The position numbers and the translations under genes are program-made. The notes under the pieces are model-generated. The model saw only the letters and a program-made list of their open reading frames with translations, ran no database searches and was not told the DNA's origin. This document shows positions 35,976 through 47,160 of a stretch of 64,000 nt of DNA, piece after piece; within the stretch, counting starts at the first letter, position 1, and every line of letters starts with the position of its first letter. The DNA is from Longimicrobiales bacterium. Lineage in GTDB: Bacteria > Gemmatimonadota > Gemmatimonadetes > Longimicrobiales > Gaopeijiaceae. The stretch is taken from assembly GCA_951828585.1 (NCBI GenBank), contig OX639991.1:2078576-2142575 (forward strand). Direction: 5' to 3'.

Positions 35976-35998
35976 GTGCTGGCACTTTCTGCTAGCAC
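35976..35998. terminator. Bidirectional hairpin between EF-G2 and the propeller operon
   Basis: GTGCTGGCA pairs with TGCTAGCAC around CTTTC, with one G-U pair. It lies at the convergent ends of the EF-G2 gene and the propeller operon. A sister hairpin with the same TGCTAGCA arms is at 44250-44270. Confidence 0.55.
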
Positions 35999-36108
35999 TA
36001 TCTGCCGGACCGCTCCAGGCGCCACACCTGGACGGACTCGACCCCGAACTCCTCGTCTTCCGTCTTGCCCACGATGTAGTCCTCGCCGATCTCGTAGATC
36101 TCCAGCCC

Positions 36109-37203
36109 CTACGGCGTTTCCACGAAGCCCAGAACACGTCCTTCGGGGTCGAAGACGGTCCAGAGAACGCCGGGCCGTTCTTCCCCGGGGGGCTCGTATT
36201 CCCTGACCCACAGGTGGTCCACGGCGTCGCACATGATGGAGCTGTAGGCGGGAAGGAACTCGGCCACCGGGACGGACCGGAGATTCAAGCGCGTTTGCGC
36301 CTTCAATTCCACCGGGTCACTCGCAACCCCATCAACCCACCGGTCGATGTAGGCCTGCAGGTGAGCATCGGCCGGTGCACGCCGTACATGGTCCCGGCGG
36401 ACGATCCGGGTCAGCGTCCCATCCGGCGCAAACGCTTTGAACTCGTAGTGATCCGTCGGGCTGATCACGATGAGTTGTCCCCAGGGCTGCAGGTTCAACG
36501 TGCGGCCGAAGATTGTCGTATAGCGCGTGTTGCCGACCCGAGTCCTGGGTTCCAGACCTTCGTGTGTCCCCAGTGATCCACGGAGGTTTCCTTCCGTATC
36601 CCAGACCTCCACCACCACGTTTCCTTCGGCCCAGACCGGATCCTGACCGGCGAGAATCAAACCGTCGCGCGTTGCCGACAACGGACCGATAGGGTGTATT
36701 GGCGGCTCGGCGGCACTCCTGGCCGAGAGTACCCTGCGCGCGTAATTACCCGCCGGGTCGAATACGGTCATCCTCGGATCCAGCTGGCCCCACACGATCG
36801 TCGAGTCGTTCGGCAGACGCTCTATTTGCCTGAGGTTTGTGAACTCTCCAGGCCCTTCGCCCTCGCCTCCCCATGTATCCAGATACGTTCCCTCCGCGTT
36901 GAAAACCCTCAACTCGGTCGTACCCGTGTTCACCACGACGATTCGCCCGTCGGACAGAATGGTCGCGTCGCGGACGGCGAAGAGCATGTAGGGGTCGTCG
37001 CCCTCCAGCACGCCGATGGAGACCTCCGGCTCCGGCCCGATCCGCCAGTCCAATCGGGAGCCGTCGGTTGGGCGGGCGTTCTCGACGATGCGGATGCCGG
37101 CGCTGTCGCGCATTTGGGTGTCGGGCCGACCCCCCGGCTCCGCGTCCTGCTGGCAACCGAGGATTCCGAGGAGCATGGTCGCGATCGTCATGTGCGTCTT
37201 CAT
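36109..37203 (-). CDS. 6-bladed beta-propeller lipoprotein 1, truncated by a nonsense codon
   Basis: The protein has 364 residues. The lipoprotein signal ends LLGILGC (Cys17). The family opening DSAGIRIVENARP is followed by WRIGPEPEVSIGVLEGDDPYMLF and propeller strands (SDGRIVVVNTGTTELRVFN, GGEGEGPGEFTNL, FGRTLNLQPWGQLIVISPTDHYEFKAF). Translation stops at a TAG after GRVLGFVETP. The same frame continues to 35998 as GLEIYEIGEDYIVGKTED and onward to VWRLERSGR, matching the other paralogs. The last blade is therefore lost or made only by readthrough. It is the last gene of the operon. Confidence 0.8.
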   Translation of the reverse strand: MKTHMTIATMLLGILGCQQDAEPGGRPDTQMRDSAGIRIVENARPTDGSRLDWRIGPEPEVSIGVLEGDDPYMLFAVRDATILSDGRIVVVNTGTTELRVFNAEGTYLDTWGGEGEGPGEFTNLRQIERLPNDSTIVWGQLDPRMTVFDPAGNYARRVLSARSAAEPPIHPIGPLSATRDGLILAGQDPVWAEGNVVVEVWDTEGNLRGSLGTHEGLEPRTRVGNTRYTTIFGRTLNLQPWGQLIVISPTDHYEFKAFAPDGTLTRIVRRDHVRRAPADAHLQAYIDRWVDGVASDPVELKAQTRLNLRSVPVAEFLPAYSSIMCDAVDHLWVREYEPPGEERPGVLWTVFDPEGRVLGFVETP

Positions 37204-37218
37204 TCCCGTTCTCGCTTG

Positions 37219-38394
37219 CTACCTGGCGGACCGCGCCAGCGGCCATAGCTGAACCGACTCCACCCCGAGTTCGCTGATCACTTTGCCCAGGATGTAGTCG
37301 GCGCCGATTTCGTAGATGGACAACCCCGCAGGTGTTTCCACGAAGCCCAGCACGTGCCCTTCCGGGTTGAAGACGGTCCAGAGGGGGGTGGCCCTCTCCT
37401 CTCCCGGAAGGTCGTATTCCCTGACCCAGAGGTGGTCGAGCGCGTCGCTCATGATCGAGGTGAACGCGGGGAAGTGCTCGGCGACGGGCACGGAGCGGTA
37501 TTCGCGGCGGTCGGCTTCGTTGAAGAATCTCCTTCCCTCAACGTGGGTCTCGACATCCGCCGAAGTCACCGCACGCGGACTGTGCTCCCGCCGGACGATC
37601 CGGGCCAGGGAACCGTCCGCCTCCAAGGCCTTGATCTCGTAGTGACTCGATACACCTACGGCGACCAGGTCCCCCCAGACTCCCCACACGGGTTCTCTGC
37701 CGAAGATCTTCCAGTACAGCATTTCGCGGTTGGTTCCCTCGTTCATCAGGTAGGGCTCCGAGCCCGGATGCGTCCCCAGCGAGCTTCGCACTGCACCTTT
37801 GCCGTCCCTGAACTCCAGGACGAGCGTGTCCGCGTCTTCGGGTGCCAGCACGGCGAGGAACAGGCCATCCTTCGTCGGGGAGTCCGGCCGGAACCGCCAC
37901 GACCGCGTGCCGTCGTTGATCCCGAAGGTTCGCCCGTAGTTCCCGTCGCCATCGAAGACGGATATGCGCCACCCAGGCGCGAACCAGGCTACAAGGGAGT
38001 CGCCCGGCCACGGTGCCACGTTACCCAGTTCACGAAACTCGCCGGGTCCTTCACCCCGGCCACCGCGGGTTCCCAGGTGACTCCCGTTCGAGTCGAAGAT
38101 TCTCAGCTCGGCCGAGCCGGCGTTGGCGATCACGATGCGGCCGTCGGCCAGCCTGGTGGCATCGGTTACGAAGAAGAGCATGTGTGGCTCGTCTCCCTCC
38201 AGGACGCCGATCGAGAGCGATGGCTCGGGACCGATCCGCCAGGCCAGCCGTGAGCCCTTCGGAATGCGGGGGTTCTCGACGATCCGGATGCCGGCGCTGT
38301 CGCGTAATTGGGTGTCCAACCCGTCCGCCCCCTCGTCCGACTCGCAGGCCATGAATCCGAGTACGACGACGACCACCGGGATACGCGTCTTCAT
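37219..38394 (-). CDS. 6-bladed beta-propeller lipoprotein 2
   Basis: The protein has 391 residues. The signal ends VLGFMAC (Cys17). The mature part has DSAGIRIVENPRIPKGSRLAWRIGPEP-like opening, then IGVLEGDEPHMLF, ADGRIVIANAGSAELRIFD, GGRGEGPGEFREL and VWGDLVAVGVSSHYEIKALE. The C-terminus is intact (GFVETPAGLSIYEIGADYILG). Function is unknown; NHL/propeller lipoproteins usually bind ligands or partners at the cell surface or periplasm. It lies 15 bases before gene 1 and 16 bases after gene 3 in one operon. Confidence 0.8.
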   Translation of the reverse strand: MKTRIPVVVVVLGFMACESDEGADGLDTQLRDSAGIRIVENPRIPKGSRLAWRIGPEPSLSIGVLEGDEPHMLFFVTDATRLADGRIVIANAGSAELRIFDSNGSHLGTRGGRGEGPGEFRELGNVAPWPGDSLVAWFAPGWRISVFDGDGNYGRTFGINDGTRSWRFRPDSPTKDGLFLAVLAPEDADTLVLEFRDGKGAVRSSLGTHPGSEPYLMNEGTNREMLYWKIFGREPVWGVWGDLVAVGVSSHYEIKALEADGSLARIVRREHSPRAVTSADVETHVEGRRFFNEADRREYRSVPVAEHFPAFTSIMSDALDHLWVREYDLPGEERATPLWTVFNPEGHVLGFVETPAGLSIYEIGADYILGKVISELGVESVQLWPLARSAR

Positions 38395-38410
38395 TGTGCT
38401 TGTCACCTTT

Positions 38411-39616
38411 CTACCGGGCGGACCGGTCCAGGCGCCACACCTGCACCGACTCAACGCCGAACTCCTCGTCTTCCGTCTTGCCCAGGATGTAGTCCGCACC
38501 GATCTCGTAGATCCCCAGTTCCTTCGGCGTTTCGACGAAGCCCAGCACCCGCCCCTCGGAGTCCAGCACGGTCCAGAGGACGCCCGGCTGGTCTTCCCCG
38601 GGCACCGCGAATTCCTCGACCCACAGGTGGTCCAGCGCATCGGTCATGACGGAGGTGAAGGCCGGGAAGTACTCGGCGACCGGAATATCCTGCATCTCCC
38701 CTCGGTACTGCACCCTGTACTCAACCATCTCGCTCGGCACTCGGGATACTCGGGCCTCGATGTAGGCATCGACATTTGCCTGCTCCGGCTCACGCGGCTC
38801 GTGCCCGAGGCGAACGATGCGGGCCAGGGTGGCGTCCTTGGTGAACGCCGTGATTTCGCTGCGGTCGGTGGGACTGATGACGACCAGTTCGCCCCAGGGC
38901 GCCATCGCCAGAGTGCGACTGAAGATCACGTTGTTGAGCGAGTTGGCCCGCTCGAGGTAGTAGTTTTCCCAACCGGGATGACTGCCCAGGAAGCGGCGTG
39001 ATCCGCCCTCGGCGTCGAAAATCGCAACGTCAACCGTGTCGGGGTGGGATGGTTCCCGGGCAAGCAGAATCGAGCCGTCTCGCATCACCATGTACAGGCC
39101 AAGCTCGAAGACGGCTCGCGGGCTGACGATGGGAGAATCCTCCAGGCGGACAATGCGGCCCACGTTTCCGTTGGAGTCGAAAACGGTCATCGTCTCGTGC
39201 CGGAAGTCCCCGGCGACGAGCGAGTCTCCCAGCCAGGGGTCGGCCTGATAGAGATCGATGAACTCGCCCGGCCCCTCGCCCCTTCCTCCCCAGGTCTCCA
39301 GGTAGATTCCCATCGGGTCGAACACCCTCAGCTCGTTCGCGCCCACCACGACGATCCGTCCGTCGGACAGAATGGTCGCATCCCGGACGGCGAAGAGCAT
39401 GTACGGGTCCTCGCCCTCCAGCACCCCGATAGAGACGGCCGGCTCCGATCCGATCCGCCAATCCAGCCGGGATCCGTCCGGGGGGCGTGCGTTTTCGACG
39501 ATCTGGATGCCGGCGCTGTCGCGTTGTTGGACGTCCGGGCCGCCCGCGGGCTCGGCGTCCGGCTGGCAGGCGATGAATGCATTGACAGTGATCGCCGCGA
39601 TGGTGCGCATCTTCAT
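38411..39616 (-). CDS. 6-bladed beta-propeller lipoprotein 3
   Basis: The protein has 401 residues. The signal ends NAFIAC (Cys17), then QPDAEPAGGPDVQQRDSAG. Propeller motifs are IGVLEGEDPYMLFAVRDATILSDGR, VVGANELRVFDP, GGRGEGPGEFIDLY and PWGELVVISPTDRSEITAF. The C-terminus ends DYILGKTEDEEFG and VWRLDRSAR, nearly identical to the lost tail of protein 1, so the two are recent paralogs. The ATG overlaps the stop of the M56-propeller gene (ATGA), so translation is coupled. Confidence 0.82.
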   Translation of the reverse strand: MKMRTIAAITVNAFIACQPDAEPAGGPDVQQRDSAGIQIVENARPPDGSRLDWRIGSEPAVSIGVLEGEDPYMLFAVRDATILSDGRIVVVGANELRVFDPMGIYLETWGGRGEGPGEFIDLYQADPWLGDSLVAGDFRHETMTVFDSNGNVGRIVRLEDSPIVSPRAVFELGLYMVMRDGSILLAREPSHPDTVDVAIFDAEGGSRRFLGSHPGWENYYLERANSLNNVIFSRTLAMAPWGELVVISPTDRSEITAFTKDATLARIVRLGHEPREPEQANVDAYIEARVSRVPSEMVEYRVQYRGEMQDIPVAEYFPAFTSVMTDALDHLWVEEFAVPGEDQPGVLWTVLDSEGRVLGFVETPKELGIYEIGADYILGKTEDEEFGVESVQVWRLDRSAR

Positions 39617-41655
39617 TCGCTGGACCGCTCCAGCGGCCACACCTGTATGGACTCCACTCCGAAATCGTCTTGCACCCTTCCCAGGATGTAGTCTCCGCCG
39701 ATCTCATAGATCTGCAGACCCGGCGGCGTCGCGACGTAGCCCAGCACGTGCCCTTCCGGGTCGAAGACGGTCCAGAGCGATCCGGACTTCTCTTCGCCCG
39801 GCGCCGCGTATTCCTCGACCCAGAGATGGCCGAGTGCGCCGGACATGACGGTACCGAAGGCGGGGAGATGATCGGCGACCGGTACGGGCCGGCCGTGCGC
39901 GCGCGACTTCGCCCCATCTTCGATCGTCCCCCCGGGGGTGCGGGCAGCCTGCGCCTCCACGTAGGCATCTACCTGAGCGCGGGACGGCCTGCGCGGCCTG
40001 TGGTCGCGGCGGACAACTCGGGCCAGGGTGCCGTCGTTCGCGAAGGCCCTGATCTCGTAGCGATCGGTCGGGCTGACGACGAGCAGATCACCCCAGCGCT
40101 CCACCGCCAAACTGCGGCCGAAGATGGCATGGGGATCCTTGCGGGCCTGCACAAGGAAGTACCGTTGCAATAGCAGATTGACCGCTTCTCTCTCCGGACG
40201 CAGGATACGACCGAATTCTCCCTCCGAGTCGAGCACCTGCATGCTGCCTTGCCGCCAACTCCAGGCGACGATGGAATCTCCCGGAAACGGTTCGACCCGG
40301 AAGAGATCGGTGAACCTGCCCCCACCCCATCCCTGTCCCCCCCAGGTTGCCACATGGGTTCCCGAGCGGTCGAACACCCTGAGTTCGCTGGTCCCGCGGT
40401 CCGCCACGACGATCCGGCCGTCGCGCAGCATGGTGGCATCGGTCGCGTCCGTGAACCGGGCGGCATCCTCTCCTTCGCGCCCGCCGATCGAAACCACCGG
40501 GCGCGGCCCGATCCTCCAACCCAGCCGCGACCCGTCCGGTGGGCGCGCGTTGTCGACGATCCGGACCTTGGCGCCGCCCGTCGCAAGGATGCGAACCGGG
40601 TGGGTCACGGAGGCCGAAACCCCCACGACACCGATCGCCATCAACACGACTGCGGTAAGGATGGTGCTGCGGCGCGGTCGGCGCGGTTCGAGAATGGATG
40701 CGATTCTCCGCTCCAACCGTGAGCCCGTGTATCGGACCATGGGGAGCGACAGAGCGGACGGGCCCGGGTTCATGCCCCCTGCCGCCACGGCAAGCAGGTG
40801 TCCCGCGTACCGCGAGGGGCGGGTGCCCAGTGCAAGCACCTCCTCGTCGCAGGCTTCTTCGCGCGCGGATGCGGCGAGCCGCACGGCCGCCCAGGCGAGG
40901 GGGTGGAACCAGTAGAGCGCAAGGGCGGCCCGCAGTATCAGTTGCCGGAGGGCATCGCGGCGCCGGACGTGGATCAGTTCGTGCGTCAGAACCGCCTGCC
41001 GTCGTGCCGGGGACCACGCTTTCGCCGACGCGGGAAGCAGGATTGCCGGCCTCCGGAAGCCTCCGGTCATCGGTGTGTTGGCCCGCGCGCTGAGGTAGAG
41101 CGGCACGTCGCTCTGGATGTTGAGGCGCGCGCGGACCCGTGCCGCCTGCCTAAGCCAGACCAGGTCGTGAACCGGTTGCGCGTGGCGAACGAGTCTGCCG
41201 AAGCGAAGCATGCCCACCAGGAGGGAGATCAAGGCCGTTGCGCAGCCAAGGCCCCAGAGCAGAAAGGGCAGCGGAAGCGAATGGGATGATGTGGGGGGCT
41301 CGGCCTCGCGTATCGGGGCGGATGCGGGGTTGGGGGACGCCGGGTTGGGTGGGGGTGGGGGGACTAGCTCTGTGGTCGGTTCCCGGACGATTGGAGCGGC
41401 CGGACTGGGCGTGGCGGGACGGAGGTCGGGTGTGTCGGCGGCAGGGGCGCGCAGGAGCGGGACTTCCCAGGCGGGGCCGAAGAGGCTCAGCGCGGGCAAC
41501 CCGAGCAAAAGCGCGAACGTGGTCGTCCACAGAAGGTGACGGACCCGGGCGGGGTGCCGCCGGACGAGCCACGCCAGAGCCAGCGCCACCGCCAGTAGAA
41601 CCGTGGCCCTGGTGGCGAGTTCAAACAGGCCATGAGAATCGGGTATCGCGAACAT
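39613..41655 (-). CDS. BlaR1/MecR1-like M56 membrane protease fused to a beta-propeller sensor
   Basis: The protein has 680 residues. Membrane helices lie at about 11-31, 40-60, 127-150 and 331-350, with a Pro-rich loop between. The M56 zinc site is His225-Glu-Leu-Ile-His229 in AVLTHELIHVRRRD, with a downstream EEACDEEV for the third ligand. In BlaR1 the part after the last helix is a penicillin-binding sensor. Here residues 363-680 are a 6-bladed propeller (VRIVDNARPPDGSRLGW, VSIGGREGEDAARF, RWGDLLVVSPTDRYEIRAF, YEIGGDYILGRVQDDFG) of the same family as the neighbouring lipoproteins. The gene lies 6 bases after the BlaI-type repressor. A ligand-triggered cleavage of that repressor is the natural inference. 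Confidence 0.88.
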   Translation of the reverse strand: MFAIPDSHGLFELATRATVLLAVALALAWLVRRHPARVRHLLWTTTFALLLGLPALSLFGPAWEVPLLRAPAADTPDLRPATPSPAAPIVREPTTELVPPPPPNPASPNPASAPIREAEPPTSSHSLPLPFLLWGLGCATALISLLVGMLRFGRLVRHAQPVHDLVWLRQAARVRARLNIQSDVPLYLSARANTPMTGGFRRPAILLPASAKAWSPARRQAVLTHELIHVRRRDALRQLILRAALALYWFHPLAWAAVRLAASAREEACDEEVLALGTRPSRYAGHLLAVAAGGMNPGPSALSLPMVRYTGSRLERRIASILEPRRPRRSTILTAVVLMAIGVVGVSASVTHPVRILATGGAKVRIVDNARPPDGSRLGWRIGPRPVVSIGGREGEDAARFTDATDATMLRDGRIVVADRGTSELRVFDRSGTHVATWGGQGWGGGRFTDLFRVEPFPGDSIVAWSWRQGSMQVLDSEGEFGRILRPEREAVNLLLQRYFLVQARKDPHAIFGRSLAVERWGDLLVVSPTDRYEIRAFANDGTLARVVRRDHRPRRPSRAQVDAYVEAQAARTPGGTIEDGAKSRAHGRPVPVADHLPAFGTVMSGALGHLWVEEYAAPGEEKSGSLWTVFDPEGHVLGYVATPPGLQIYEIGGDYILGRVQDDFGVESIQVWPLERSSE

Positions 41656-41661
41656 GTCGGT

Positions 41662-42045
41662 TCACCGTCCCTCTTCGGATGCCTGGTCGATCAGCGCCTT
41701 CATGCGCGCGCGCTCTTCCGGCGTCAGGCTGGTGTCCTCCAGCTCAAGCAAAGTGGCCACGGCACCCTCGACCGACCCGCCAAAAAAGGTTCGGAGGACG
41801 TGCCGCATGACGGAGCGCCGGGCACGCTGGGCCGGGACCGTGGGGGAGTAGACCAGGCGGGGGCCGTCGTATTCTCTGGCCAGGTGTCCCTTTTCGACGA
41901 GGATTCTGAGTATCGAGCGGACGGCGGAGTCGGTGGGGGGTTCGGCCATTCGCTCACGGATTCGGGCGGCGGTGGCGTCGCCCATTTCGTGGACAATGTC
42001 CATGACTTCGCGCTCTCGTCTGCTGAGCGGTGGCAGGTCGGTCAT
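41662..42045 (-). CDS. BlaI/MecI-type transcriptional repressor
   Basis: The protein has 127 residues. A winged-helix domain (LSRREREVMDIVHEMGDATAARIRERM, then TDSAVRSILRILVEKGHLARE) is followed by a dimerisation region with VLRTFFGGSVEGAVATLLE. The latter corresponds to the BlaI segment cleaved (Asn-Phe in BlaI) when the sensor protease is activated; here it reads TFF. GAGGAAATC precedes the ATG, which overlaps the stop of propeller gene 5 (ATGA). It probably represses its own operon from the dyad at 43406-43438. Confidence 0.9.
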   Translation of the reverse strand: MTDLPPLSRREREVMDIVHEMGDATAARIRERMAEPPTDSAVRSILRILVEKGHLAREYDGPRLVYSPTVPAQRARRSVMRHVLRTFFGGSVEGAVATLLELEDTSLTPEERARMKALIDQASEEGR

Positions 42046-43331
42046 GATTTCCTCGCTTGTGTGAGAGTCGGCCCGGCGGACCGAGGCTCTCGGTTCTCGT
42101 TCGGATCCACCTGTCCACTCTCGGATTGAGGGGTGGAAGTTCGGTTCAGACGCCATACCTGAACCGATTCCACCCCGAGGTCGCTTGCCACCCGGCCCAG
42201 GATGTAGTCCTCCCCGATCTCGTAGATCTCCAGCCCCCGCGGAGTCTCGACAAACCCGAGCACCCGTCCTTCCGGGTCGAAGACGGTCCAGAGCGGACCT
42301 GCGGCCTGCTCGCCGGGTACTGCGTACTCCTTCACCCACAGATGGTCCCGGGCATCGGCTATGACGGTGTCGAAAGCCGGGAGGTGCTCAGCCACCGGCA
42401 CGCTTTGGAAGCGCTTCCGCTCCGACTCCCGGACCTCCACCAACGCCTCCGGTAAACGCGAGACCTGTTGCTCGATGTACGCTTCGATGTGTGCGCCGGT
42501 CGGCGGAATCGGCAGATGGTCGCGGCGCACGATCCGGGCCAGCGAGCCGTCCTTCGCAAGCGCCCTGAACTCGTAGTGGTCGGTCGGGCCGACGACGATC
42601 ATGTCCCCCCAGGTCTCCGCTGCCAGCCTCCGTCCAAAGGTTACCGGATAGTTGCTGGCTTCTGTTCGATACCGCTCGGCGGCCGGATACGTACCCAGGG
42701 CAAGCTGGAAGACGCCGTCCATATCCCAGAGTTCGACCGCCACGGTGTCGGTCGTGACAAAGCCCTGATTCTGCACGGCCAGAATCGCGCCATCGCTCGT
42801 TGCGGCCAGTGGGTGGATGAAATCGAAGGGCTGATCGGACAGTCTCCACCTGGCCGGGAAGCTGCGTGCGAAGTTCCCGTCCGGGCCAAACACGGCCACG
42901 TCCGGCTCCATCAGGGCCCACACCAGGGCAGAGTCTCCTGGCAAGGGCTCAATATGGAAGATGTCGTCGAACTCCCCTGGTCCCTCCCCCTTGCCGCCCC
43001 AGGTGTCCAGGTAGGTTCCGCGCGCATCGAAGACCCTCAACTCGGTCGTTCCACGGTTTACCACGACGATCCGTCCGTCCGTCAGTCTGGCTGCATCCGA
43101 TACGTTGAAGAGCATGTGCGGCTCGCTCCCCTCCAACACGCCGATCGAGACCGACGGCTCGGGGTCGATCCGCCAACCCAGCCGGGAGCCGGTGGGCGGC
43201 CGGGCGTTTTCCACGATCCGAATCCCGGCGCTGTCACGGAGCTGGGAATGCAAACCGCCCATCGCCGCGTCCGACTGGCAGGCCATGGCGGAAAGGGCGA
43301 GGAGCGCTGCCGGGATATTCTTCAACTTCAC
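42042..43331 (-). CDS. 6-bladed beta-propeller lipoprotein 5 (first gene of operon)
   Basis: From a GTG preceded by GAGAGGACATCC the protein has 429 residues; an ATG 12 codons upstream is in frame but lacks a site. The signal ends SAMAC (Cys18). Motifs are DSAGIRIVENARP, GVLEGSEPHMLFNVSDAARLTDGR, GGKGEGPGEFDDIF, TWGDMIVVGPTDHYEFRALAKDG and IYEIGEDYILGRVASDLG. It carries a 30-residue polar tail beyond the family end (QSESGQVDPNENREPR). It is the first gene behind the operon promoter. Confidence 0.82.
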   Translation of the reverse strand: MKLKNIPAALLALSAMACQSDAAMGGLHSQLRDSAGIRIVENARPPTGSRLGWRIDPEPSVSIGVLEGSEPHMLFNVSDAARLTDGRIVVVNRGTTELRVFDARGTYLDTWGGKGEGPGEFDDIFHIEPLPGDSALVWALMEPDVAVFGPDGNFARSFPARWRLSDQPFDFIHPLAATSDGAILAVQNQGFVTTDTVAVELWDMDGVFQLALGTYPAAERYRTEASNYPVTFGRRLAAETWGDMIVVGPTDHYEFRALAKDGSLARIVRRDHLPIPPTGAHIEAYIEQQVSRLPEALVEVRESERKRFQSVPVAEHLPAFDTVIADARDHLWVKEYAVPGEQAAGPLWTVFDPEGRVLGFVETPRGLEIYEIGEDYILGRVASDLGVESVQVWRLNRTSTPQSESGQVDPNENREPRSAGPTLTQARKS

Positions 43332-43405
43332 GGATGTCCTCTCCCTTGTCGGCTGGGAAGATGGCAAACCAGCCGCCCTGCGGGGTGCGGAGCGATTGGC
43401 CTCCT

Positions 43406-43438
43406 TTGATTAATACGTCAAAAATGCCGAAAAATCAA
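43406..43438 (-). promoter_or_regulatory. Promoter with overlapping dyad before the propeller/BlaI/M56 operon
   Basis: On the minus strand TTGATT (43438-43433), a 17-base spacer and TATTAA (43415-43410) form a good sigma-70 promoter in an AT-rich patch. TTGATT and AATCAA are inverted repeats bracketing the whole promoter (33 bases). That position suits a dimeric repressor such as the BlaI-type protein encoded in the operon. Binding is inferred only. Confidence 0.5.
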
Positions 43439-43521
43439 CATAAAGGTGAATTTTCAGCGCCGACGCATCGTCCTCCACCCCTGCCCCCCGAATTCAATCC
43501 AACGGACACCGTCTGTCGGAT

Positions 43522-44094
43522 CTACGTACCGCTCGCCCACTGATCCAGATGACGCGAAAAGACCTCGCCAAGGTCGATCAGGCCCAGGCGCTCGCGACCG
43601 TGCCGGACGGGGAGCTTGCCGGAGAAGCGCTCGTGCCCCGACCCATCCCCGAAGCGCCAGACATCGACCAGGTCCTCGACCGGATCCACGATCCAGTATT
43701 GCCGCACCCCGTGACGCGCGTACAGATCCAGCTTGATCCCGCGATCGCGGTGCGCGGTGGACGGCGAGAGGATCTCGACGACGAGGTCGGGTGCGCCCAG
43801 AATCTGCTTCTCGCCGATGATCGCCTGTCTCTCGCTGGACACGAACAAAAGGTCGGGCTGGACCCGGTCGTCGCTTCCCGGGAACTCGACCAGGAGCGGG
43901 GCGGAGAACACTTCTCCGTGTCCGGAGTCCATGAGGATCCGCCACAGAGCTAACCAAAGTCGCCTCAGGACGCGCTGGTGCCGGGTCACCGGGGCGGGCG
44001 TCATGTACAGGCGCCCCCCGATGAACTCGTAGCGGTTGCCGTCTTCCGGCATCCGCAGGACATCCTCCCAGGTCTTCGGTGCTTGAGTCTGCAT
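43522..44094 (-). CDS. Uma2 family (DUF820) putative restriction-endonuclease-fold protein
   Basis: The protein has 190 residues. MPEDGNRYEFIGGRLYMTPAP, VQPDLLFVS, PDLVVEILSPSTAHRDRGIKLDLYARHGVRQYWIVDP are the family motifs. The Asp, Glu-x and Lys positions form a PD-(D/E)xK-type active site. The role of Uma2 proteins is unknown, and they often occur in multiple dispersed copies. It stands alone between two propeller loci. The ATG is close to a TATGAT box (44110-44105), suggesting a very short leader. Confidence 0.8.
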   Translation of the reverse strand: MQTQAPKTWEDVLRMPEDGNRYEFIGGRLYMTPAPVTRHQRVLRRLWLALWRILMDSGHGEVFSAPLLVEFPGSDDRVQPDLLFVSSERQAIIGEKQILGAPDLVVEILSPSTAHRDRGIKLDLYARHGVRQYWIVDPVEDLVDVWRFGDGSGHERFSGKLPVRHGRERLGLIDLGEVFSRHLDQWASGT

Positions 44095-44249
44095 GATGGA
44101 CACATCATACCTCCCCGCTCTCGGGTGCGCGAACCGTTCCGGGGGAGCAGGGTACGGCTGAACGATCAGGGTTCCGTCACCGTGTTGGCCACGCACTGCG
44201 ACCGCGTCCGCCCAGAGGCCCGCTGAAGCAGGAGGGATTGATTGTAAAG

Positions 44250-44270
44250 TGCTAGCATTTCGTGCTAGCA
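44250..44270. terminator. Hairpin with twin TGCTAGCA palindromes
   Basis: TGCTAGCA is repeated around TTTCG, making an 8-base-pair stem. It lies 21 bases after the stop of the minus-strand lipoprotein gene at 44291. The arms equal those of the hairpin at 35976-35998, which also follows a propeller gene. Confidence 0.5.
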
Positions 44271-44290
44271 ACCATCGTCACGAGAGACTG

Positions 44291-45466
44291 TCAGCCCTTG
44301 ATGAGCCCGTAGACCTCCACGAAGGGCACATCGAATTCGTCGCTCCTCACCAGCAGAACATAGTCGTCGCCGACATCCATGAGGCGTGCGCCTGCGGGAA
44401 CCGCGACTGCTCCCTGCAGCCGTCCATCCGAGAGGAAGACCTCGTACGTGTCGTAGGCAGCGTCGGCCATGTCGACTGGTAGCCTGCCCACCCAGATGTT
44501 TCCACTCCGGTCCACCAGCAACGAGTGGCCCGCCGGAAACGCCTCGGGAGCCGGGAAGAGGTCGGCCAGCCCGGACGGGGTGAGTCCCGGCGCCAGGGCA
44601 GTGGCCCGCGCGTACATGGACGCGAGTGCCTCCGGGGTCGGCTCTCCCGCTCCGTGTCGCCGGACGACGCGAACGACCTTGCCCGCGGTCGTCATGTACG
44701 TCAGTTCGTAGCGGTCCGCGCTCAATACAACCACGGTCGCGGGTGATCCTCCAACCGCGATCAGATCCTGTCGTCCGAAGGGGTCCACCACCGTCCAGAA
44801 CCGTCCGTCGGCAGTCCGATACGAGTTGGCGCCGGCCCCGGTGAAAAGACCCAGTGTATCCAGCCGCTCGCCCTCCCAATCGGTGCGGAAGAGACGGAAT
44901 CGGGGGGCGAGAATCCCGTCCCCCAGCTCGATTGCTCCGGGGCCGAAGTCACACAGAAACACATCTTCGCCAAAGAAGGTGAATGGACAGAGGAATTGCT
45001 GGTGCGGGGTCCAGTCGAGCCGTTCGTCGGAGATCAGGTCCCCCGTTGAGCTTAAGCGGATCCGCTTGTCGCCCCCCTTCAGCTGCACGCCGCCCGCGAA
45101 CCGCGACAGATGCCCCGCCGATGTGAGTTCGCCCGGCCCCTCCCCCGGCCCCCCCACCGAGAACAGGTGGGCGCCCCCGCCGTCGAAGAAGCGCAGTTCC
45201 AGCGACTCGTCATCCAGGACCACGATCGTGTCGGGCGCCAAGCGCAGGGCGCCCACAATCCACGAAAACTGAAACTCGGGCCGACCCGTGACCGCCTCTC
45301 CGATCCTGACGAGCGGCTCCCCGGTCAGACGCCACCCATCCCCTCCCCCCGCCAGCGGCCCCCACACGTCCACCACCTCGATCCTGGCGGAATCCTGTAC
45401 CGTGAAGGACCCGCCCTCGCGCGGTGCGGTATCGGCGCACCCGCCCCACCCCGCAACGCCCGCCAC
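44291..45466 (-). CDS. 6-bladed beta-propeller lipoprotein (second locus); start codon unclear
   Basis: From the only nearby accepted start, a GTG at 45466, the protein has 391 residues. However, the lipoprotein signal clearly begins further upstream (PRARLAVLVAGVAGWGGC). No ATG, GTG or TTG precedes it in frame for a long way; the codon near the expected position is GTA. Propeller motifs are DSARIEVVDVWGPLAGGGDGW, GPGEGPGELTSAGHLSRF, FLCDFGPGA and MDVGDDYVLLVR. It follows the carboxypeptidase-regulatory gene with 26 bases or less between. Confidence 0.65.
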   Translation of the reverse strand: MAGVAGWGGCADTAPREGGSFTVQDSARIEVVDVWGPLAGGGDGWRLTGEPLVRIGEAVTGRPEFQFSWIVGALRLAPDTIVVLDDESLELRFFDGGGAHLFSVGGPGEGPGELTSAGHLSRFAGGVQLKGGDKRIRLSSTGDLISDERLDWTPHQQFLCPFTFFGEDVFLCDFGPGAIELGDGILAPRFRLFRTDWEGERLDTLGLFTGAGANSYRTADGRFWTVVDPFGRQDLIAVGGSPATVVVLSADRYELTYMTTAGKVVRVVRRHGAGEPTPEALASMYARATALAPGLTPSGLADLFPAPEAFPAGHSLLVDRSGNIWVGRLPVDMADAAYDTYEVFLSDGRLQGAVAVPAGARLMDVGDDYVLLVRSDEFDVPFVEVYGLIKG

Positions 45467-45492
45467 CAGGACGGCGAGGCGCGCCCGCGGGC

Positions 45493-46866
45493 CTACCTTC
45501 TGCCCCCGCGCTGCGTGTACAGCAACAACACCCCGTTCGCGCCCCGGTCCCCGTAAAGGAACCCGGCCTCCAACGGCGTGATGATCTGGTACCAGCGGAT
45601 GTCGGTCGGGTTGAGTTCCTTGAGGAAGAACATCGGCTCCGGCACCGGTCCGTCGTTGATGCGGACTTCGACCATGTTGCACGCATTGGGCATTCCCCCC
45701 CCGCGCCGCCGCTGGATCTCGATGCACAGGCCCTCGCGCAGCATCCCGAAGGAGTCGGGCACCCACACGTTCCTCACCGACAGGCCAGGCATCTGCGACG
45801 CGCGCACCAGCGACGCCAGGTCGGCCACGCGCGGCAGGACGGAGTCCACCTGCGCCTCGGTCAGCCCGGAAAAGCGTGTCCCCGGCGTCGTGTAGATGGG
45901 GTCGCCTCTGCGCCCCGTGATGACGAGCGGGTCGAGGACGATGGCGTCGGTGGCGAGGAGGATCTCCAGTCCCAGGGCCTCCCTGCTGAAGGCGGTCAGT
46001 GAGTCGGTGCGCGTGGCGTACCCGAGCTGATCGGTCAGGATGACCTGTTTGCCGGGTGGGACGCCCGCAAAACCGAACTTGCCCGCCGAATCGGTGAGCA
46101 TGTCGAAGGCGGTACCCAGGAGCTGGACCCTGGCGCCCGCGAGGGGGGCGCGGGTGGCGTGGTCCAGAACGGTTCCCGTGATGCTGACGGGGTCCGCGAT
46201 CCGGATGCTCATGTCCAGGATCTGGGGGCCGGTCCGGATGATGGCCGCGTGGTCGGTCTCGCTGGTGCCGAAGAAGGCGGTGACCGACAGGTCCAGGGAA
46301 CCGTCCAGGTTGCAGAGCCGGAACTCGCCGGAATCGCCGGTGCGCGTCTCGGCGACCTTGCTCCTGCGAGCCAGCAGGCCGGCGTGCTGGGCGAAGGCCG
46401 TCACCCTCGCTCCGGGCAGCGGCACACCGGTGACTACATCGGTGACGAAGCCCCCGATCGAGGTGCTCCCCACGCCTTCCTCGATCGAACACCAACCGGC
46501 CAGGATCGTTTCCCGGGACGGAACCGCGAGATAGGTCTCGACGACGGACCCGGCGGCCACCACGACCTGTTGGCCGCCGCCGCTCACGCCCAGGGTCCCC
46601 AGGCGGGGGTGGAAGAACATCACCGTGTGCTCTCCGACGGGAACGTCCTCGAGGCGGAACCGTCCCTCTTCGTCCGATTTCGTCATGGCCGAGGTCCCCA
46701 CGACGGCCACGTTGGCTCCCTCGAGAGGGACGCTCGTCGTGCTGTCGTAGACGAGGCCCGTGACGGTCCCGGTCGGGCCCTCCTGGGCGGAGAGGGCCAG
46801 GCCGGTCAATGCGAAGAGGAATGCGGCCAGAGCCGCTACTGTGGGGAGACGGTGGTGCATCATCAT
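45493..46866 (-). CDS. Carboxypeptidase-regulatory-like protein with TonB-plug-like C-terminus
   Basis: The protein has 457 residues. A signal peptide ends TGLALSAQ. Three or so Ig-like regulatory repeats follow (GTVTGLVYDSTTSVPLEGANVAVVGT with SDEEGRFRLEDVP, SIGGFVTDVVTGVPLPGARV, SITGTVLDHATRAPLAGARVQLLGT). The C-terminus resembles the plug region of TonB-dependent receptors (IRWYQIITPLEAGFLYGDRGANGVLLLYTQRG) but the barrel is absent. Such proteins are common in Gemmatimonadota and Bacteroidota. Three consecutive ATGs (46866, 46863, 46860) could start it. Confidence 0.75.
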   Translation of the reverse strand: MMMHHRLPTVAALAAFLFALTGLALSAQEGPTGTVTGLVYDSTTSVPLEGANVAVVGTSAMTKSDEEGRFRLEDVPVGEHTVMFFHPRLGTLGVSGGGQQVVVAAGSVVETYLAVPSRETILAGWCSIEEGVGSTSIGGFVTDVVTGVPLPGARVTAFAQHAGLLARRSKVAETRTGDSGEFRLCNLDGSLDLSVTAFFGTSETDHAAIIRTGPQILDMSIRIADPVSITGTVLDHATRAPLAGARVQLLGTAFDMLTDSAGKFGFAGVPPGKQVILTDQLGYATRTDSLTAFSREALGLEILLATDAIVLDPLVITGRRGDPIYTTPGTRFSGLTEAQVDSVLPRVADLASLVRASQMPGLSVRNVWVPDSFGMLREGLCIEIQRRRGGGMPNACNMVEVRINDGPVPEPMFFLKELNPTDIRWYQIITPLEAGFLYGDRGANGVLLLYTQRGGRR

Positions 46867-46936
46867 CGAATTCGGAGTCCGGCGGGTGTTTCGGCGCTTC
46901 CCCTGGCCGGTGGAGTCCGGTGTCGGGACGAGATTA

Positions 46937-46942
46937 ATTATA
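46937..46942 (-). promoter_or_regulatory. -10 box (TATAAT) for the carboxypeptidase-regulatory gene
   Basis: A perfect TATAAT on the minus strand lies in an AT-rich patch, followed by TAATC like the operon promoter at 43410. The -35 (TCACAT, 17 bases upstream) is weak. The predicted leader is about 65 bases. Confidence 0.4.
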
Positions 46943-47160
46943 CCGCCCAAGGCGCGTGAATGTGACATGGCTCCTGTCCGTTGGACGCGGAATCGGGCGG
47001 GGCGGGTTGGCTGCATGGGGCGCTGAACCGGCCCCTCCGCATTCGGCTATATTACGGGGTTGACCGGGACGAGCGGACCGGATTTTCCACCGGAGACAAG
47101 GGGCGGATTGCCCGCAGTCACCCTGTACGGAGGGTAGCCCGTGGACAAGGACGGCTAGCT

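Follow-up and report, generated by a model that had tools for sequence, protein, structure and literature searches.

Antibiotic resistance is the main context in which BlaI/M56 pairs have been described, and the locus examined here raises the question of what such a pair may sense and control when it is embedded in an operon of propeller lipoprotein genes. The window, a 64 000 nucleotide stretch of the genome of a Longimicrobiales bacterium (G000), carries on its minus strand the series P5-BlaI-M56-P3-P2-P1 (Table 1), which the gene positions place in one six-gene operon. A preliminary description had given 4-base overlaps or gaps of 16 bases or fewer throughout, and the refined gene starts agree with this: P5/BlaI and M56/P3 overlap by ATGA, and gaps of 6, 16 and 15 bases separate BlaI/M56, P3/P2 and P2/P1, respectively. 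Reading of the ORFs and Pfam domains of the locus found no beta-lactamase or PBP gene among the operon genes. A Uma2-type endonuclease gene (43522–44271, minus strand) lies directly upstream of the operon, and apparently the same gene lies upstream in G019. Two further minus-strand regions, 45493–47016 and 44291–46495, comprise a partial SusC/RagA-like match, in a protein far too short for a barrel, and then another propeller protein. The host lifestyle is probably marine and sponge-associated.

Table 1. Features of the operon and of its upstream region (positions in the window)
Feature	Position	Strand	Remarks
P5, propeller lipoprotein, operon gene 1	42042..43331	(-)	429 aa, GTG start
BlaI-type repressor	41662..42045	(-)	127 aa; ATGA overlap with P5; PF03965
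M56 anti-repressor protease with C-terminal propeller sensor (putative)	39613..41655	(-)	680 aa; HELIH at residue 225; sensor about 361–680
P3, propeller lipoprotein	38411..39616	(-)	in the tree, closest lipoprotein to the M56 sensor
P2, propeller lipoprotein	37219..38394	(-)	aligned to P1
P1, propeller lipoprotein ended early by TAG	36109..37203	(-)	homology runs on to 35998
O1, main predicted operator TGTTGATTTTTCGGCA, imperfect palindrome TGYTGA-N4-TCARCA	43425..43440	(-)	genus scan; PWM 29.1 bits
O2, upstream predicted operator of the tandem pair CGCTGAAAATTCACCT	43444..43459	(-)	19 bp upstream of O1; conserved position
Putative promoter: -35 TTGATT (43438–43433, within O1), 17 bp, -10 TATTAA (43415–43410)	43410..43438	(-)	read from sequence

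The M56 protein matches Peptidase_M56 (PF05569; 109 bits, cut-off 31), and the protein encoded 6 bases upstream matches Penicillinase_R (PF03965; 87.4 bits, cut-off 22.6). In structural comparison of the AlphaFold model, whose mean pLDDT is modest (66.9) and is higher over most of the sensor, M56 residues 127–316 superpose on Staphylococcus aureus BlaR1 (8exp; Z 16.7, 186 residues), and residues 376–680 match NHL propellers (Brat NHL, Z 15.3). The C-terminal domain of M56 is an NHL-type propeller, and a penicillin-binding, class D-like sensor is not present in this protein; the NCBIfam model blaR1_generic scores 75.8 bits, where its cut-off is 400. A phmmer search of PDB sequences gave no match for BlaI and matched M56 to NHL propellers only.

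The sensor is about 50 residues, or roughly one blade, shorter than the lipoproteins. A helix (residues 491–505) lies at the site of the missing blade, and the gap is common to both M56 orthologues, those of genomes G007 and G019. Because the sensor is without one blade that is present in the lipoproteins, its binding face may differ from theirs. Among the three orthologues (G000, G007 and G019) sensor identity is 75–78% and dN/dS is 0.22–0.25, on a par with the protease part (0.23–0.35), which indicates that the M56 sensor is under purifying constraint. BlaI is 94–95% identical to its counterparts in G007 and G019.

All four stand-alone propellers of the operon have lipobox-like starts (FIAC, FMAC, ILGC and AMAC). 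The Pfam '6-bladed beta-propeller' domain DUF5128 (PF17170) is above the cut-off in P1 and P5 and below it in P2, P3 and the M56 sensor; in full-length alignment the latter three are 52, 55 and 49% identical to P1, and the other lipoproteins and the sensor taken together span 49–56%. The AF2 model of P5 (mean pLDDT 84.9, pTM 0.83) matches NHL propellers at Z about 20. P1 had been described as ending at 35998. An in-frame TAG (36111–36109) intervenes after 'GFVETP', 36 residues short of the homologous end, and reaching 35998 would be read-through; the P1 homologue in G007 lacks such a stop. Since the part missing from P1 corresponds to the last strands of the P5 model (368–396), the P1 propeller may stay unclosed. 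Only 5 of the 127 long propeller matches contain an in-frame stop, and the places where it falls are scattered. The P1 TAG thus seems to reflect decay, and recoded or programmed stops in the propellers were rejected on these grounds. G007 is damaged elsewhere, P3 being frameshifted and P2 having lost a large internal segment, and taken with the P1 stop this suggests that individual lipoprotein products may be dispensable. The propellers do not form the small private family that was supposed at first: 155 pieces of the G000 genome match the propeller profile, and the 148 that were tabulated fall into about 70 clusters. A diversity-generating mechanism, also proposed at that stage, was not borne out; swapping appears to have taken place between loci over evolution, the stops are scattered, and nothing in the operon suggests such a mechanism, whether a diversity-generating retroelement (reverse transcriptase with variable and template repeats) or another programmed one.

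Alignment of the upstream region of G000 with those of G007 and G019 revealed a conserved operator block. In G007, P5 is absent and BlaI is the first gene, and the block lies directly upstream of it. The predicted operator has the form TGTTGA-N4-TCAGCA, frequently as two copies 19 bp apart, and the position of O2 relative to O1 is kept in G007, in G019 and at several more loci whose BlaI belongs to this subfamily. Both predicted operators fall within the region 43380–43460 that had been proposed for a BlaI footprint. The -35/-10 spacing is equal in G007 (TATTGT) and G019 (TAGCGT); a strict sigma-70 scan called no promoter in the region, and terminator calls were at chance level. Conservation points to a palindromic operator that overlaps BlaI's own putative promoter.

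A scan of 23 genomes of the genus for TGTTGATTTTTCAGCA, with one mismatch at most, found 18 sites and none with the reversed control. Eleven immediately precede BlaI/M56 operons and the other seven precede propeller genes; among these seven, two belong to the P5-BlaI-M56 operons in G000 and in G019. The variant TGTTGANTTTTCAACA gave eight further sites, every one before BlaI/M56 genes, so that 26 of 26 sites genus-wide precede a BlaI/M56 or propeller gene, with none from reversed controls. When 1.29 Mb of fetched loci were scanned with a PWM, symmetric half-site variants such as CGGTGATTTTTCACCG and TGCCGAATTTTCGGCA were recovered, with covariation between half-sites as in CGGTGA..TCACCG and TGCCGA..TCGGCA; their symmetry exceeds that of shuffles (P 0.003), which is supportive only, because the variants came from a scan with a near-palindromic motif.

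Two propeller genes of G000 that are unlinked to the operon carry an operator site upstream. One (2445963–2447152) is a close relative of P5, 72% identical, but is broken. The other, at 2807379, is distant from P5 (about 24% identity); its relatives in G007, G013 and G019 (73–81% identical) all have the site, making four genomes with G000. The window's M56 is the sole member of its class found in G000 (M56 tree), and for this reason the window's BlaI is the obvious candidate regulator of both genes, on which it would act in trans.

The association of M56 with propellers extends beyond this operon. G000 has 13 M56 loci and 10 BlaI loci, and eight of the 13 M56 genes have a stand-alone propeller no more than 5 kb away, where 2.4 would be expected from rotated positions (P 0.0007). 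A recognisable C-terminal propeller is present at 22 M56 loci of the fetched set, a set biased in that it was chosen largely for resemblance to the fused protein. Tabulation of M56 proteins and their propeller neighbours, as had been suggested, found the same fused architecture elsewhere in the genus, where M56-propeller fusions appear to be widespread. Among M56 relatives from many phyla (n=80), BlaI is nearby in 77 and a propeller in six. Loci that part BlaI/M56 from propeller genes, which the preliminary description had taken as telling against its proposal, are thus found outside the genus, whereas within it the architecture recurs.

Other M56 loci vary in their C-terminal parts. L104 (10580–12901) is a second M56-propeller fusion in G000, with a full-length propeller and an M56 of the other class, and L099 (7275–10315) is a probable third, broken by a frameshift and adjoining divergently placed propeller genes. 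The C-terminal tail of M56 resembles a TonB-type domain in L103 (7245–9023) and L108 (10739–12079), and M56 genes are in tandem in L112 (7503–10706). In the M56 proteins of L189–L206 the sensor is a small domain with a long coiled coil, and the operator ahead of these genes is of the kind that the window's operon has. In this type of protein, the sister group of the window's M56 class, a propeller gene follows directly in about ten loci. When the C-terminal domains of the sister proteins were compared with the propeller profile, the coiled-coil types gave no match and a three-locus group a weak one (67%).

Fused propellers do not separate from free ones in a tree built from 160 propellers but intermingle with them, and well-supported branches force at least 10 changes of label; this is a FastTree tree whose long branches make the deep joins unsure, and the conclusions use short joins. 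The M56 protease domains, in the protease tree, fall into two tight groups. Because near-identical proteases bear unrelated propellers (protease distance 0.19 with sensor distance 4.34 between L183 and L185; 0.27 with 5.16 between L185 and L186), the propeller sensor appears to have been swapped repeatedly in evolution. In seven of the 11 fused lineages that have a local lipoprotein, at least one of the three lipoproteins closest to the sensor comes from its own locus (mean of permutations 2.6, P 0.001); in the other four, L104 included, the local lipoproteins are not close to the sensor. For the window's sensor, its own-locus relative P3 ranks first of 138 lipoproteins. The earlier claim of a close relationship between the sensor and the lipoproteins regulated with it is upheld. 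The M56 sensor looks like a captured copy of an operon-type lipoprotein. Against this reading of the kinship, local tandem duplication alone would give similar neighbours.

On balance, and with some reserve, the locus probably encodes an autoregulated BlaI/M56 proteolytic circuit, with a sensor that is related to the circuit's own products. BlaI dimers would sit on one or two of the 16 bp palindromes over the -35 box and repress P5-BlaI-M56-P3-P2-P1 together with one or more unlinked propeller genes. Once a ligand or partner meets the extracytoplasmic propeller of M56, the zinc-protease site would cleave BlaI; the lipoprotein propellers would then be made, and could bind or capture at the envelope the same ligand that the sensor reports. 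Proteolytic relief of repression is taken as the default mechanism because of BlaR1 biology (PMC9834060) and the PetR/PetP pair (PMC7896320). A shared ligand is plausible, and recognition of the same or related ligands by sensor and products is probable, because the sensor seems to descend from the propeller subfamily to which the operon lipoproteins belong. Occupancy of the operator by BlaI, cleavage of BlaI, the identity of the ligand, the location of the lipoproteins at the cell surface and the feedback are steps that we infer. A point against this reading is that sister M56 proteins, which lie behind an operator of this kind, have a coiled coil and not a propeller as sensor. A wider proposal, put forward tentatively as a possibility, is that of a modular surface-sensing cassette, in which the receptor would repeatedly capture a copy of the propeller lipoprotein under its control and the ligand-matched pair would move together between loci and genomes. 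If this is true, propeller sequence would predict ligand matching.

The lipoproteins could instead be co-sensors, which bind the ligand and dock on the extracytoplasmic part of M56, and which have been fused with it into one chain in some lineages. Repeated M56-propeller fusion is gene-fusion evidence of such an interaction, and the propeller genes that directly follow M56 genes with coiled-coil sensors are consistent with it. However, the M56 of the operon already has a propeller, yet four more are encoded, and distant orphan propellers with the same operator fit outputs better; the co-sensor explanation is considered unlikely, if deserving of some weight. The two roles can hold together: outputs are favoured because orphan targets carry the operator, and contact with the receptor is favoured because fusions repeat. 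Still less probable is that this BlaI/M56 pair is a general switch for envelope stress, to which a propeller tail without specific recognition was joined by chance, with the local similarity due to tandem duplication only. Local duplication is indeed common, and several of the 155 propeller match pieces in the genome are damaged, but the sensor is conserved (75–78%, dN/dS about 0.23), and sensors seem to have been replaced by other propellers several times, not simply lost.

That the palindrome is the site of some other regulator, and not of BlaI, seems very improbable. It is unlike the TACA/TGTA-type sites for BlaI, MecI and CopY. However, the site is confined to the window's BlaI subfamily, where 27–29 of 37 genes carry it, and is present at none of 15 from the others. 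In the window's class, whose 37 genes include a few from other classes or at contig edges, it is within 320 bp of 27, and two more, including the window's own, have it ahead of P5; the other classes gave 0 of 10 and 0 of 5. The genus scan with its zero control remains the cleanest operator evidence, because the PWM was built partly from the loci tested. In addition, another BlaI subfamily has a different dyad, of the TACTGC..GTAGTA type, at the same promoter position, a further point against another regulator.

The BlaI/M56 circuit proposed here shares with staphylococcal BlaR1-BlaI and MecR1-MecI an M56 zinc protease, an extracytoplasmic C-terminal sensor and an adjacent BlaI gene. BlaR1/MecR1 sensors have kinship with class D beta-lactamases, enzymes that handle the same ligand (PMC9834060); the propeller sensor is likewise a relative of lipoproteins that would handle its own. 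Unlike those systems, the locus has an NHL-type propeller sensor, propeller-lipoprotein products, another operator and no beta-lactamase or PBP gene, and its sensor has apparently been exchanged repeatedly for other propellers. By analogy, the locus may be regarded as BlaR1 logic, with the sensor kin to the products, moved to another fold and presumably another ligand. PetR/PetP of cyanobacteria is likewise a BlaI/BlaR1-family pair, with a copper signal and a small regulon (plastocyanin/cytochrome c6); it resembles the present locus, for which a non-beta-lactam signal is presumed, and differs in that its description includes neither a propeller sensor nor propeller products (PMC7896320). In the literature, no paper was found that links M56/BlaI with propellers, and a Palauibacterales paper makes no mention of such genes. 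A fold shared by sensor and product was overstated as unprecedented, because BlaR1/MecR1 already provides such kinship with the class D enzymes (PMC9834060) and because BlaI/M56 pairs that answer to a non-beta-lactam signal, as PetR/PetP does to copper, are known (PMC7896320).

We know of no ligand for bacterial DUF5128/DUF4221-type propellers, and of no BlaI/M56 control of BtuG-type lipoproteins. The fold of the lipoproteins and sensor is like that of DUF5128/DUF4221-type and NHL propellers (PF17170; PDB 3s9j and 4raa; Brat/TRIM NHL), the NHL matches being structural only. BtuG-type surface lipoproteins (PDB 8okv and 8ptf) are ligand-capturing surface propellers and offer a plausible model for the output, but the structural match is weak (TM 0.37 to 8okv) and the propeller family is different.

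Sensors and regulons are known for only a minority of the M56 proteins of other phyla. Here the operator, a partial regulon and the sensor are all readable from sequence. The natural sensor swaps on one protease scaffold are ready-made chimeras for finding the sensor's ligand, and the locus offers an initial way into the regulation of propeller lipoproteins, of which these marine Gemmatimonadota have a very large repertoire.
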